From Rhodoferax sp. AJA081-3 (GTDB lineage Bacteria > Pseudomonadota > Gammaproteobacteria > Burkholderiales > Burkholderiaceae_C), in NCBI RefSeq assembly GCF_017798165.1, contig NZ_CP059068.1, positions 4,030,001 through 4,094,000 on the forward strand: a DNA stretch of 64,000 bases, given 5' to 3'. Position numbers and translations under genes: made by a program. Within the stretch, counting starts at the first letter, position 1; the number at the start of each line of letters is the position of its first letter. Under the pieces are notes generated by a model. The model had not been told where the DNA came from, searched no databases, and worked only from the letters and a program-made list of their open reading frames with translations. Below are positions 7,833 to 54,974 of this stretch, piece by piece.

Positions 7833-7860
7833 AGACGGCTAAGAGTTCGTGTGTCGATGC

Positions 7861-7965
7861 GCGCCCGCAGCAGAGCAGGGGGTAAACACCGCCGTTCGTG
7901 TCCTCCGCCCTTCGGGCTCCCCCTTTACCTCACTTTGGCGTTCACCCCAGCCCTGCCGCTCGATC
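7861..7965. repeat. Palindromic repeat R2, decayed copy F
   Basis: The 212-base gap between the methyltransferase and the GTPase holds an imperfect hairpin. Its centre (GTTCGTGTCCTCCGCCC, TTCGGGCTCC, CTTTACCTCACTTTG) is the R2 core read on the minus strand. The arms (around GCAGGGGGTAAACACCGCC and GGCGTTCACCCCAGCCCTGC) pair only partly. I see no terminator with a T run here. Confidence 0.65.
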
Positions 7966-22036: not shown

Positions 22037-23988
22037 ACCCCGAAGACCCGTCCATCCACGACCACGCCCCGACGCCTGTGCCCGAAGGCGCAGTGGAGCC
22101 GCGCGTGTTGCATGGGGTGGATGCCGTCCCGTCTGACCATCCAGTGGCGCAAGGAGTCTGGGTGGCAGAGCGTTCTGCGCAGGTAGAGGAGGAGCCCGCG
22201 CAGCGGGCGGGGGACACGGAGCAGAATGCTTTGCCGCCCAGACTCCTGGCCGATGACCAACCCGCCGCTGTGGCGATCACGGCAACGGGTCGCGTCTTGC
22301 CCACCACCCTGACCGCTGCTGCGGATGCAGCCGCTTTTGTTGCGCAGATCTTTGCCGACACAAAGGCCGAGCAGGCTGCGCTGGCGGACAAGACGCAGAA
22401 GGCCGAGGCTCTGGCATCCGAAGTCATTGCAGACGATGTAGCGTTGGAGCCGCAAGCCGATGCGCCTTTCCAACCCCTGTTGGGCCAGAACATCCTGATC
22501 CTGGGCCTGGGCGCCTCGGGTCTGGCCATGGCACGCTGGTGTGTACGCACTGGCGCCGCCAGTGTCACTGTGGCCGATACACGTGACGCGCCCCCCCAGT
22601 TGGCGACGCTGCAGCAGGAGTTGCCCCAGGTGCGGTTTGTCGCCGGGCCTTTTGATGCAAGCCTGGTGGACGGGCAGAACATACACGCGGTGTACCGCTC
22701 ACCCGGTTTGAGTCCTGATGTCATTGCTCCTGTTTTAATAGCTGCACAAGCAAGTGATACGGGGGCTGGAGGCGAGTTGAGCTTATACGTCATGGCGCTG
22801 CAGACACTGCGGGAGACTCGTGGTTATGCACCGGCCGTGTTGGCCATTACCGGTACCAATGGGAAAACCACCGTCACATCGCTGACCGGCCAGCTCGTGG
22901 CCCACGCCGGCAAGACCGTGGCCGTGGCCGGCAACATCGGCCCCACGCTGCTGGACACACTGGCAGCCCATCTGGATGCCAACACACTGCCCGAGGTCTG
23001 GGTGCTGGAGCTGTCCAGCTTCCAGCTCGACGGCGTCACCGGTTTCGAGCCCACGGCTGCGGTTGTGCTGAATGTGACCCAGGACCATCTGGACTGGCAC
23101 GGCAGCATGGATGCCTATGCAGGTGCCAAGGCCCGCATCTTTGGTGCCACCGGCCTGATGGTGCTGAACCGCGACGATGTGGCGGTGATGGGCATGCTGC
23201 CGCCACCCGTACGCGCCAAGCTGCAAAAACCTGTGGAGCGCCCCTACACCAGTTTTGGCACCGACATGCCCCAGCGCCCTGGCGACTTCGGTATCGAAGA
23301 AGTCAACGGCATGGTCTGGCTGGTGCGCGCACTGGAGGCTGACGAGACCCGCCGCAAACGCAAGGAAGCCGCAGAAGAGCTGCACTTCCAGCGCCTGATG
23401 CCGGTGGACGTGTTGCGCATCCGCGGCCGCCACAACGCCAGCAATGCCTTGGCTGCGCTGGCCCTGTGCGCCGCGGCTGGTTGTGCGCTGGGCCCCATCC
23501 TGTTTGGCCTGCGCGAATACCGCGGCGAGCCGCACCGTGTTGAGCCCATTGGCATCCTCAACGACGTGGAGTTTTTTGACGACAGCAAGGGCACGAATGT
23601 GGGTGCCACCGTGGCGGCGCTGCAAGGCCTGGGCGCGGACCGCAAGGTGGTGCTGATACTGGGCGGCGAAGGCAAGGGCCAGGACTTTGCGCCGCTGGCC
23701 GCACCCGTGGCCCGTTATGCCCGCGCCGTGGTGCTGATTGGCCGCGACGCACCGCTGATCCGCGCCGCGCTGGACGGCACCGGTGTGACTCTGACCGATG
23801 CGGAATCCATGGACGCCGCAGTGGTGCAAGCCAACCAGCGCGCCCACGCCGGTGATGCAGTGCTGATGTCACCCGCCTGCGCCAGCTTTGACATGTTTGA
23901 CAACTACGAACACCGGGCACGGGTGTTCATCGCCGCGGTGCGGGACCTGGCTTTGGCCGCGGGTGTGGATTTGGAGAGCTTGGCATGA
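22033..23988 (+). CDS. murD: UDP-MurNAc-L-alanine:D-glutamate ligase with a 148-residue N-terminal extension
   Basis: The ATG at 22033 overlaps the mraY stop and gives 651 residues; MurD is usually 440-550. The enzyme proper starts at about residue 149 ([21 protein letters not shown]). It has the ATP loop [34 protein letters not shown] and [17 protein letters not shown]. Residues 1-148 are disordered and A/E/D/P-rich. About 40-71 of these are encoded by palindromic repeat R2, giving a peptide almost the same as one inserted in Mpl. A second short repeat (R1) lies in the codons before the ATP loop. The fold and catalytic residues look complete, so the enzyme is probably active. FtsW follows with overlap. 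Confidence 0.95.
22152..22247 (+). repeat. Palindromic repeat R2, copy A, in frame in murD
   Basis: Exactly 96 bp. Left arm 22152-22178 (begins AGGAGTCTGGGTGG) and right arm 22221-22247 (ends CCGCCCAGACTCCT) are inverted repeats of 27 bases with three mismatches. The core between them carries AGGAGGAGCCCG and CGGGCGGGGGACACGG. It is read as [18 protein letters not shown] plus arm-coded residues. Confidence 0.9.
22725..22778 (+). repeat. Short dispersed repeat R1, copy inside murD
   Basis: ATTGCTCCTGTTTTAATAGC, a variable middle, then ACGGGGGCTGGAGGCGAG: a diverged R1 unit, in frame, coding the segment [18 protein letters not shown] just before the ATP-binding loop. Confidence 0.5.
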
Positions 23989-37431: not shown

Positions 37432-37502
37432 GGGCGGATGATACAGAGCTATATGACGCTTTGATGTGGGTTTATACGAGGGTATGTTTTGGTGTGTTTG
37501 GC

Positions 37503-37606
37503 TCTCGCCGGATGCAGAGCCTGTGCGCTCTGCGCCGTTCGTGTCCCCCGCCCTGCGGGCTCCTCCTTTGCCTCACTTTGCAGAACACCCAGACTCCGCA
37601 TCCGAG
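37503..37606. repeat. Palindromic repeat R2, copy D
   Basis: Arms 37510-37533 and 37580-37603 pair over 24 bases with several mismatches (ends GGATGC/GCATCC). The core is on the minus strand: GTGTCCCCCGCCCTGCGGGC then TCCTCCTTTGCCTC. Type II centre (with CACTTTG and CGTTCG next to the core). The stretch from 37432 to 37625 holds nothing else I can name. Confidence 0.8.
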
Positions 37607-38238: not shown

Positions 38239-38338
38239 CCCGAGCAGAAGACCCAGGGCGTACGCCAAAGCGAGGTAAAGGAGGAGCCCGAAGGGCGGGG
38301 GACACGAGCGGCGGCGTGCGCCCTGGGTCTTCTGCGGG
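38239..38338. repeat. Palindromic repeat R2, copy E
   Basis: Arms 38245-38266 and 38313-38334 form a 22-bp stem with one mismatch, extended by CCCG/CGGG beyond a two-base bulge. The plus-strand core is GAGGTAAAGGAGGAGCCCG, AAGGGCGGGGGACACG (type II). It is inverted relative to copy D, on the other side of the kinase gene. Confidence 0.85.
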
Positions 38339-38360
38339 CGAATAAACAAAAGCAACGCAA

Positions 38361-46412: not shown

Positions 46413-46508
46413 AGGAGTCTGGGTGGCAGAGCGTTCTGCGCAGGTTAAGGAGGAGCCCGCACAGCGGGCGGGGGACACGTAGCAGAACGTTCTGCCACCC
46501 AGACTCCT
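46413..46508. repeat. Palindromic repeat R2, copy B, intergenic
   Basis: Exactly 96 bp. Arms 46413-46439 and 46482-46508 pair over 27 bases with one mismatch and share their sequence with copy A in murD. The core has AGGAGGAGCCCG and CGGGCGGGGGACACG. It fills most of the space between the dehydrogenase and tldD. Confidence 0.92.
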
Positions 46509-46527
46509 GGGAGCCTAGAATCGCCCC

Positions 46528-53480: not shown

Positions 53481-54974
53481 CTAGTGGGCCTGTAGCGCCG
53501 CGGCCAATTTCAGGTGAATACCGCCAAAGCCCCCGTTGCTCATGCACAGGATGTGGTCGCCGGGCCGCACCTGGGCCAGCACCTGGCGGATGGTGCTGTC
53601 CACATCATTTGCCACGCTGGCCCGCTGGCCCATGCTGGACAGGGCCTCTGCGGCGTCCCAGTCCAGGCCACCGGCATGGCAGAAGGCCAGGTCGGCCTCT
53701 TCCAGGCTCCAGGGTAGTTGGGACTTGACTGCTCCCAGTTTCATGGTGTTGCTGCGGGGCTCGAACACGGCCAGGATACGTGCCGCGCCCACCTGGCGGC
53801 GCAGGCCGTTGATGGTGGTGCGGATGGCGGTGGGGTGGTGGGCGAAGTCGTCGTAGATGGTGACTGTCGATGGTCCCGCATCCGCCGGGGTAGTGCTACC
53901 CAGGGTCACGCGGGCCCGCACTTCCATGCGGCGTTTGACATTGACGAAATGGCCCAGGGCCTGGGCCGCCGCGCTGGGCGTTACGCCCACGTGTTCTGCG
54001 GCGGCAATGGCGGCCAGGGCGTTCAATTGGTTGTGCACGCCGCTCAGTGACCATTCCACCCGGGCGACCACTTTGCCGCCTTGCAGCACGTCGAAGGCAT
54101 GGGGCTCACCCACAGCTGTGAAATCACTGACCGTGCTGCCAAAGCTGCGTTGTTCACTCCAGCAGCCCTGGCTCAGCACGCGGGTCAGGCTTTCTTCCAG
54201 GCCGTTGACGACGATACGGCCTGTACTGGGCACGGTGCGGACCAGGTGGTGGAACTGGCGCTCGATGGCGGCCAGGTTGTCAAAGATGTCGGCGTGGTCG
54301 AATTCCAGGTTGTTCAGCACCGCGGTGCGGGGGCGGTAGTGCACGAACTTGCTGCGTTTGTCGAAGAAGGCGGTGTCGTATTCGTCGGCTTCTATAACAA
54401 ACAGAGGAGGGTGGCGAGCTGGTACCGGGTTCTGCTCCGTGTCCCCCGCCCGCTTTGCGGGCTCCTCCTTTACCTGCGCAGAACCCGGTGCCAGCTCGCC
54501 ACCCAGGCGCGCTGAGATGCCGAAATTCAGGGGGACGCCGCCTACCAGGAAGCCGGGTTGTAAGCCTGCACTCTCCAGTATCCACGTCAACATGGCTGTC
54601 GTGGTTGTCTTACCGTGGGTGCCTGCAACTGCCAAAACATGGCGGCCCTGCAGCACATGTTCGGCCAGCCACTGGGGGCCGCTGGTGTAGGGTGCGCCCG
54701 CATCCAGGATGGCTTCCATCAGCGGATAACGGGGGCTGCCGTCGGCCAGGCGGGCCCGGCTGACTACGTTGCCGATGACAAACATATCAGGCTTGAGCGC
54801 CATCTGGTCCGTGCCATAACCTTCGATCAACTCGATGCCCAGGGCGCGCAACTGGTCGCTCATGGGGGGGTAGACGCCCGTGTCGCAGCCGGTAACGCGG
54901 TGGCCCGCCTCGCGCGCCAGCGCGGCCAAGCCGCCCATAAAAGTACCGCAAATGCCCAGAATGTGAATATGCAT
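53481..54974 (-). CDS. mpl: UDP-MurNAc:L-Ala-gamma-D-Glu-meso-DAP ligase with an inserted repeat-coded peptide
   Basis: A 497-residue Mur ligase that recycles murein tripeptide. Start MHIHILGICGTFMGG; ATP loop [15 protein letters not shown] at about 115-129; EADEYDTAFFDKRSKFVHYRP; LNNLEFDHADIFDNL; DDFAHHPTAIRTTI. Residues about 159-191, between SARLG and FVIEADEYD, are an insertion coded by repeat R2 copy C ([19 protein letters not shown] and flanks). In E. coli Mpl these two motifs are a few residues apart. The remaining fold is complete, so the enzyme may still work. Confidence 0.95.
   Translation of the reverse strand: MHIHILGICGTFMGGLAALAREAGHRVTGCDTGVYPPMSDQLRALGIELIEGYGTDQMALKPDMFVIGNVVSRARLADGSPRYPLMEAILDAGAPYTSGPQWLAEHVLQGRHVLAVAGTHGKTTTTAMLTWILESAGLQPGFLVGGVPLNFGISARLGGELAPGSAQVKEEPAKRAGDTEQNPVPARHPPLFVIEADEYDTAFFDKRSKFVHYRPRTAVLNNLEFDHADIFDNLAAIERQFHHLVRTVPSTGRIVVNGLEESLTRVLSQGCWSEQRSFGSTVSDFTAVGEPHAFDVLQGGKVVARVEWSLSGVHNQLNALAAIAAAEHVGVTPSAAAQALGHFVNVKRRMEVRARVTLGSTTPADAGPSTVTIYDDFAHHPTAIRTTINGLRRQVGAARILAVFEPRSNTMKLGAVKSQLPWSLEEADLAFCHAGGLDWDAAEALSSMGQRASVANDVDSTIRQVLAQVRPGDHILCMSNGGFGGIHLKLAAALQAH
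54409..54504 (-). repeat. Palindromic repeat R2, copy C, in frame inside mpl
   Basis: Exactly 96 bp. Arms 54409-54435 and 54478-54504 pair over 27 bases with one mismatch; they begin GGGTGGCGAGCTGG and so differ from the arms of copies A and B. The core on the minus strand is AGGAGGAGCCCG, CAAAG, CGGGCGGGGGACACGG. The orientation and frame relative to the gene match copy A in murD. Confidence 0.93.

Follow-up and report, generated by a model that had tools for sequence, protein, structure and literature searches.

The mpl gene in the window (the whole stretch of DNA that was analysed, 64,000 nucleotides) contains a 96-bp palindrome that keeps the reading frame. We regard it as probable that Comamonadaceae-type bacteria harbour a hairpin repeat which is mobile but non-autonomous, that the insert is one of its copies, and that the repeat is used as a folded single strand; it would be an analogue of the RPEs, dispersed palindromic repeats of about 150 bp that lie in frame in unrelated conserved genes (PMC10969869, in excerpt). 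An earlier note, made from the letters alone, had already interpreted the palindrome as a repeat that is dispersed and has entered Mpl without breaking the frame; this part of its reading stands. The other part, that no such element had been named in Comamonadaceae, finds no support, since BRE, a repeat of Comamonadaceae and Bordetella that lies partly in coding sequences, has already been reported (PMC3110155, in excerpt). Arm covariation, the strand-specific fold, further conserved host genes and opposite orientations at orthologous sites are points beyond that note. The gene and its insert comprise the following features:

53481..54974, minus strand: mpl (UDP-N-acetylmuramate:L-alanyl-gamma-D-glutamyl-meso-diaminopimelate ligase), uninterrupted ORF of 497 aa, host of the hairpin
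54409..54504, minus strand: 96-bp hairpin element, sense to mpl, reads ..SAQVKEEPAKRAGDTEQ..; matched by covariance model R1 at genome positions 4084400-4084504 with 114.1 bits
54478..54504, minus strand: 5' arm in mpl sense, 27 nt
54409..54435, minus strand: 3' arm in mpl sense, 27 nt, one mismatch against the 5' arm
54448..54461, minus strand: inner hairpin of the conserved core, CCCGCAAAGCGGGC, helix 2 of the structure alignment

The ORF is a genuine mpl gene and reaches 644.2 bits with TIGR01081 (Mpl equivalog; cut-off 388.7). The arms are 96% complementary and enclose a spacer of 42 nt; ORF, TIGR01081 score and arms agree with the 96-bp in-frame palindrome with 27-bp arms and a single mismatch that had been read from the letters. 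When the window is searched with the arm at up to three mismatches, the two arms of the mpl copy are the only matches. Folded as RNA, the mpl-sense strand yields -69.8 kcal/mol (z -9.36) and the opposite strand -73.6 kcal/mol (z -11.87), and for either strand 0 of 200 shuffles were as low; these shuffles, together with the covariation test described below, rule out a chance palindrome. The span from GGVP to EADEYD comprises 56 residues in the window Mpl versus 27 in bare relatives, i.e., 29 extra residues where about 30 had been noted before. Five of the six reading frames of the copy are open. In a sequence alignment, the insert segment (residues 159-191) faces a length-variable region in two solved Mpl structures, and the addition of 29 residues to this naturally variable loop is probably neutral for the enzyme.

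The hairpin is dispersed over the genome, which is a single contig of 5,173,062 bp. A DNA search with the 96-bp unit gave 48 rows (best 40 of 75 candidates scored), most of which, the query's own place apart, span just the middle 50-70 nt of the unit, and in 30 loci written out with their flanks each copy is a long palindrome with different outer arms. Covariance model R1 gave 98 rows (150 of 2933 candidates scored); of these, 20 repeat a place on the reverse strand and one is weak (E 0.0089), which leaves 77 places. A genome-wide search for the core, as the earlier note had suggested, is thereby answered. Six of these places lie in the window, and the five copies outside mpl are given here as covariance-model matches at E <= 0.01, converted from genome coordinates and each including 9 nt of flank:

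46413..46517, plus strand: second window copy, intergenic; the site is empty in two relatives
22152..22256, plus strand: third window copy, with the domains of a murD-like gene downstream of it
38244..38344, plus strand: copy of the CAAAG..CGGCG subfamily, found with the covariance model
37498..37606, minus strand: diverged copy, found with the covariance model
7858..7959, minus strand: diverged copy, found with the covariance model

Five other places in the window had also been reported to share the core, an agreement as regards their number. What the copies have in common is an asymmetric core (..GCGCAGGTAAAGGAGGAG-inner hairpin-CGGGGGACACGGAGC..), enclosed by an outer stem of some 20-27 bp; provided that pairing is kept, there is little constraint on the stem sequence. 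Mean identity between copies is 50% for the arms and 87% for cores of equal length, and the most similar pair of arms reaches 93% (73 of the 77 copies in each case); near-identical copies are lacking and there is, therefore, no sign of very recent movement. Most copies measure 92-105 bp, and 32 of the 77 are exactly 96 bp long. With regard to terminal inverted repeats shared among copies, as MITEs have them, the outer arms average 50% identity, though the alignment of the 36 copies retrieved by sequence search (BLAST) alone does have a majority consensus. In this alignment, 96.1% of the cells are paired, double-sided changes occur in 25 of 33 pairs, and the covariation score amounts to 0.588, compared with a shuffled mean of 0.149 and values of at most 0.099 for slid structures. 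The arms thus covary. Subfamilies can be distinguished, a single type with an arm consensus near AGGAGTCTGGGCGGCAGAGCG and other types that form close pairs. The close pairs of the own genome comprise eight divergent ones, whose model matches are 16-103 bp apart, and one convergent one. A convergent pair also sits in an open AraC-type regulator frame. Divergent pairs, often about 40-60 bp apart, also occur in Variovorax, Hydrogenophaga and Pseudorhodoferax, and among the matches listed for other genomes there is one direct neighbour pair (G226:C362).

Arm mismatches, when read on the element strand that carries GGAGGAG, are strongly one-sided. For all loci (211 of 215 distinct copies), 297 G.T stand against 37 A.C mismatches, and the excess is found in both directions (TG 178 vs CA 15; GT 119 vs AC 22). 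Many of the 215 copies were recruited by the covariance model, and because this model itself tolerates G.U, the 36 BLAST-found copies are the cleaner control; here the ratio is 48 G.T to 14 A.C, and 37 to 5 in the inner 20 pairs. Grouping at 80% arm identity leaves 141 clusters with 202 G.T against 30 A.C, and with 72 purine-purine against nine pyrimidine-pyrimidine mismatches. On the basis of rough gene calls, which leave the copies at 82357 and 3019765 unclassed, and with omission of copies having fewer than 18 Watson-Crick pairs, own-genome copies sense to their gene or genes show 40 G.T against 4 A.C (24 of 25 copies counted), antisense copies 27 against 9 (23 of 25), and copies in convergent and divergent intergenes 24:5 (18 copies) and 9:3 (7 copies), respectively. 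Seven antisense rows at orthologous sites, a small set, yield 14:3. Since the bias persists in antisense copies, the constraint appears to sit on the element's own strand, and the GGAGGAG strand itself seems to fold, either as RNA or as ssDNA, both being compatible with these counts. A hairpin in the host mRNA is for the same reason rejected as the sole cause, although the weaker excess in antisense copies leaves room for a contribution of the host transcript.

The same counts bear on an explanation by mutation alone, according to which one arm serves as the template for rewriting the other when replication switches templates at an imperfect palindrome, and no selection for folding is required. 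Pure correction at the DNA level should leave G.T and A.C mismatches equally frequent on either strand and predicts no strand preference, and this is at odds with the ratios for all loci and for the BLAST-found set, in both directions. Other properties of the copies are as template switching would have them, and these become visible when orthologous sites are compared.

Such sites are filled in some relatives and bare in others. For mpl, a match was obtained in 89 of 100 genus genomes (own included) and the loops of 85 were read, of which 26 hold the element (23 sense; 3 antisense, L271, L277 and L291), 45 are bare and 14 contain other or longer sequence. The comparison with related Mpl proteins that the earlier note had advised hence shows an insert that is not common to all, and the 45 bare loops rule out that the residues are shared by the whole Mpl family. 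That note had held that its reading would fail if all close relatives carried the same residues with no palindrome or if the residues were ancestral to the family; because the extra residues vary among relatives, neither is the case. Among mpl loci from named records, three of 80 are filled within the gene (R. bucti, H. pseudoflava and a lake MAG). On an Mpl protein tree (105 rows, loop removed, quick method; L306 on a very long branch), the sense state needs 14 changes, gains, losses and flips taken together, at least six of them on well-supported branches, and the filled H. pseudoflava is sister to the bare H. flava. Losses may have contributed to the patchy distribution in mpl alongside gains.

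Both orientations were found at five orthologous sites, namely mpl, mutS, cobB and two sites in an hrpA-type helicase gene. In mutS, 22 sites were read out of 30 loci; six of them contain the element, once in sense and five times in antisense orientation, and cobB carries the element antisense in the own genome and sense in G185. At hrpA site 1 the element is present in 11 of 22 genomes read (9 copies sense, 2 antisense), and at hrpA site 2 in 12 of 22 (10 sense, 2 antisense), both by hand count of distinct genomes. The femAB-like site is filled in six of 29 sites read, always sense. The FtsX-type site is filled in the own genome and bare in 21 read of 23 matching relatives, the match coordinates of the remaining two (G015, G369) being too tight for an element. 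Outer arms at hrpA site 1 (GGGAGTTGGGG..) are common to copies of opposite core orientation, and inversion in place is therefore likely. Two side observations concern these sites: the mutS gene of G355 (L404) retains one arm with neither core nor second arm and appears to derive from a filled site by deletion, and in five genomes (L421, L430, L431, L434, L442) a different palindrome-like insert (..TPGSSSRSSISSPGAP.. or similar) replaces the hairpin at hrpA site 1. Most alignments with the relatives lie at 70-86%, so that the insertion events are old, and at mutS, femAB, FtsX and window 46424 no clear target-site duplication or exact boundary is legible between the diverged relatives, which show ragged similarities only.

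Arms pair better within a copy than between species. The respective values are 0.87 versus 0.63 for mpl (24 of 28 rows), 0.85 versus 0.75 for hrpA site 1 (11 rows) and 0.77 versus 0.64 for hrpA site 2 (9 of 10 rows), each with 0 of 5000 shuffles, and 0.88 versus 0.79 for femAB (6 rows; 22 of 5000 shuffles). The 60% pairing filter applied in this test dropped L274, L276, L278 and L296 (mpl) as well as L434 (hrpA site 2); four of these are pattern mis-registrations and L274 is a genuine, poorly paired copy, so that the filter slightly favours paired rows. Its 13 Watson-Crick pairs of 27, and the 19 of 27 in L288, mark the poorly paired mpl copies. mutS contributes one row to the listing, its antisense copies L384, L385, L386, L390 and L391 lying outside the search pattern.

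As to where the arms come from, the left arm of the mutS copy, CTGGAAGGCTATTTGGCTGC, is ordinary coding sequence that matches the empty orthologues L405-L408 and L411 in 14-18 of 20 nt (random mean 5.2, maximum 12 of 20), and the right arm contains an inverted copy of it. In femAB and FtsX, host sequence is present at most in the outermost 4-6 nt of the left arm (one empty relative each), and the arms of window 46424 are unlike the host sequence in two relatives. Judging from these alignments, some copies thus seem to have brought their arms along, and at least one seems to have formed them out of host sequence. Template switching at palindromes, a process known in E. coli and yeast (PMC7202029, PMC3820800, both in excerpt), is the simplest source of the mutS state, in which a host-derived left arm with its inverted copy on the right looks as palindrome extension would leave it, and core orientations that differ at orthologous sites with similar outer arms are what arm recombination would give. 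The strand bias is left unexplained, and as a complete account of the arms we consider template switching unlikely. A bolder variant, which we put forward tentatively and judge a shade less likely still, is that the mobile unit is the core of about 54 nt alone, moving as a folded single strand (RNA or ssDNA), that it copies the target flank inversely on insertion and thus makes its arms from host sequence, and that later selection for folding on that strand keeps the arms paired.

Returning to the mobile hairpin repeat as the preferred reading, further support comes from the genes in which copies reside. By a codon-usage test, 11 of the 77 copies lie in frame within coding sequence, an approximate figure because in calibration the test chose the correct frame for 586 of 740 pieces, and all 11 are exactly 96 bp long, versus 32 of 77 overall. 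The hosts, named by Pfam and NCBIfam, are Mpl, an FAD-dependent DAO-type oxidoreductase, CobB, a FemAB-like protein, an FtsX-type permease, MutS, a DUF3418 (HrpA-type) helicase with two insertions, two PMT-like membrane proteins, of which 4442237 is under the Pfam cut-off (21.1 vs 22.7 bits), and ORF 1941420 with hybrid histidine kinase domains, where the copy is within the kinase gene or in an open stretch before it. Further open frames pass through elements, some of them by chance. Three reading frames are used, a sense frame giving ..SAQVKEEPAKRAGDTEQ.., another sense frame and one antisense frame (the latter two 18 letters each). Aligned to a solved MutS, the MutS host shows a surplus of about 33 residues at the element site. 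Separately, a half element consisting of the right part only is found in frame before the C-terminal domain of MutL (L209, genome 82357-82422).

R1 matches are present in 32 of 37 genus genomes (own included), in 109 of 250 genomes and 72 of 141 genera of the GTDB family (best 15 candidates per genome scored, E <= 1e-4), and in one of 24 genomes from other families of the order. Among 32 named genomes, 13 are positive, e.g., Rhodoferax bucti, R. ferrireducens A7, Hydrogenophaga pseudoflava and H. flava, two Variovorax, Xylophilus, Pseudorhodoferax, Ramlibacter and two Ideonella. Several bacteria of this group are culturable. Plasmid and phage records gave no match to one 105-bp copy used as query, and carriage by plasmids or phages was rejected on this basis. 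One exact match to the core pattern was seen at L488 7373-7413, a viral contig (IMGVR_UViG_3300024949_000020).

A literature search with core and peptide letters returned unrelated papers only; in other literature listings, BRE was the sole repeat that looked relevant. BRE, a chromosomal repeat of about 90 bp (75-91 bp), is by description the closest named repeat in terms of host range, length and presence of some copies inside coding sequences, and the hairpin element could simply be this published repeat (Hot et al. 2011; PMC3110155, in excerpt), with dispersed chromosomal copies of similar length in overlapping hosts. However, BRE is reported as VNTR-like and tandem where several units occur, with few nucleotides between them, whereas the own-genome hairpins form the divergent and convergent close pairs described above and no tandem arrays, and the excerpted description of BRE mentions neither covariation nor a palindrome. 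A second repeat, read in frame in the same Mpl loop of other lineages (L322, L304, L305, L301, L294), is an 81-bp unit that reads GSLPPEGADSPWGGPA, is tandem in L322, L304 and L305 and reversed in L055 and L069; compared by description only, this tandem unit fits BRE (PMC3110155, in excerpt) better than the hairpin does. The hairpin element is possibly related to BRE; that the two are the same we hold to be as unlikely as the account by template switching alone.

Outside genes, the copies invite yet another explanation, a functional structured RNA, as cis element or sRNA, that is kept by selection at each locus and is not mobile. Strand-specific pairing and the conserved core would suit it, as would the fact that just seven of 57 intergenic copies with a called gene on both sides lie between divergent genes; in Bordetella, BRE overlaps transcribed sRNAs (PMC3110155, in excerpt). 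On the other hand, copies are oriented to their flanking genes in mixed fashion (14 both-sense vs 18 both-antisense), unrelated coding genes harbour copies, relatives have bare sites, and Rfam 15 gave no match in the window (gathering threshold) or in three additional loci (E up to 1). Taken together, this makes an immobile RNA distinctly improbable.

A mobilising enzyme was not found: the sole PF01797 (Y1_Tnp, RAYT-type) gene detected in the own genome is flanked by its own 30-nt inverted repeat (TAATTGGGGTCAGATTCC.., L031 1433-1462 and 2245-2274), probably as a separate REP system. Mobilisation as a RAYT-dependent REP or REPIN is thus rejected as very improbable, for although these too are palindromes that avoid divergent promoters and pair inversely, the hairpin does not border that gene, whose locus is without core motifs, and its copies have another core and long variable arms at lengths of mostly 92-105 bp. 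Nor was anything transposase-like that could mark an autonomous parent recognised by eye in two loci with wider-spaced pairs (L480, L481; ORF lists) and six close-pair loci.

Integron attC sites are structure-conserved, sequence-variable hairpins that are used as single strands. The element resembles them in conserving structure over sequence, but its variable part is the outer stem and its copies are scattered instead of standing in cassette arrays. Like the RPEs, it is a palindromic repeat in frame in unrelated protein genes. RPEs stem from Alphaproteobacteria, and the likeness drawn here is one of behaviour in genes; moreover, in the hairpin element the arm sequences vary freely yet change together, a single site can hold either orientation, and the majority of copies lie outside coding sequence. 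We would therefore class the element as an RPE analogue, not as a member. In the mechanism that we envisage, a factor acting in trans, which would recognise the core and depend on the stem, would copy or bind the element in the form of a folded single strand, namely the GGAGGAG strand as RNA or ssDNA. In-gene insertions would survive only in flexible loops, where neither stop nor frameshift arises, and replication template switching may help to perfect the arms and, as in mutS, extend them into host sequence.

The hairpin repeat provides a second setting for coding palindromes, outside Rickettsia, with many orthologous filled and bare sites. Its one-sided mismatch spectrum makes it testable whether repeats spread or persist as folded single strands and how their arms stay matched. 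If the core alone were the mobile unit, it would represent a target-templated palindromic element. In many species, conserved proteins (Mpl, MutS, CobB and a helicase) accommodate, each in the same loop, an insert of about 30 residues that derives from a repeat.
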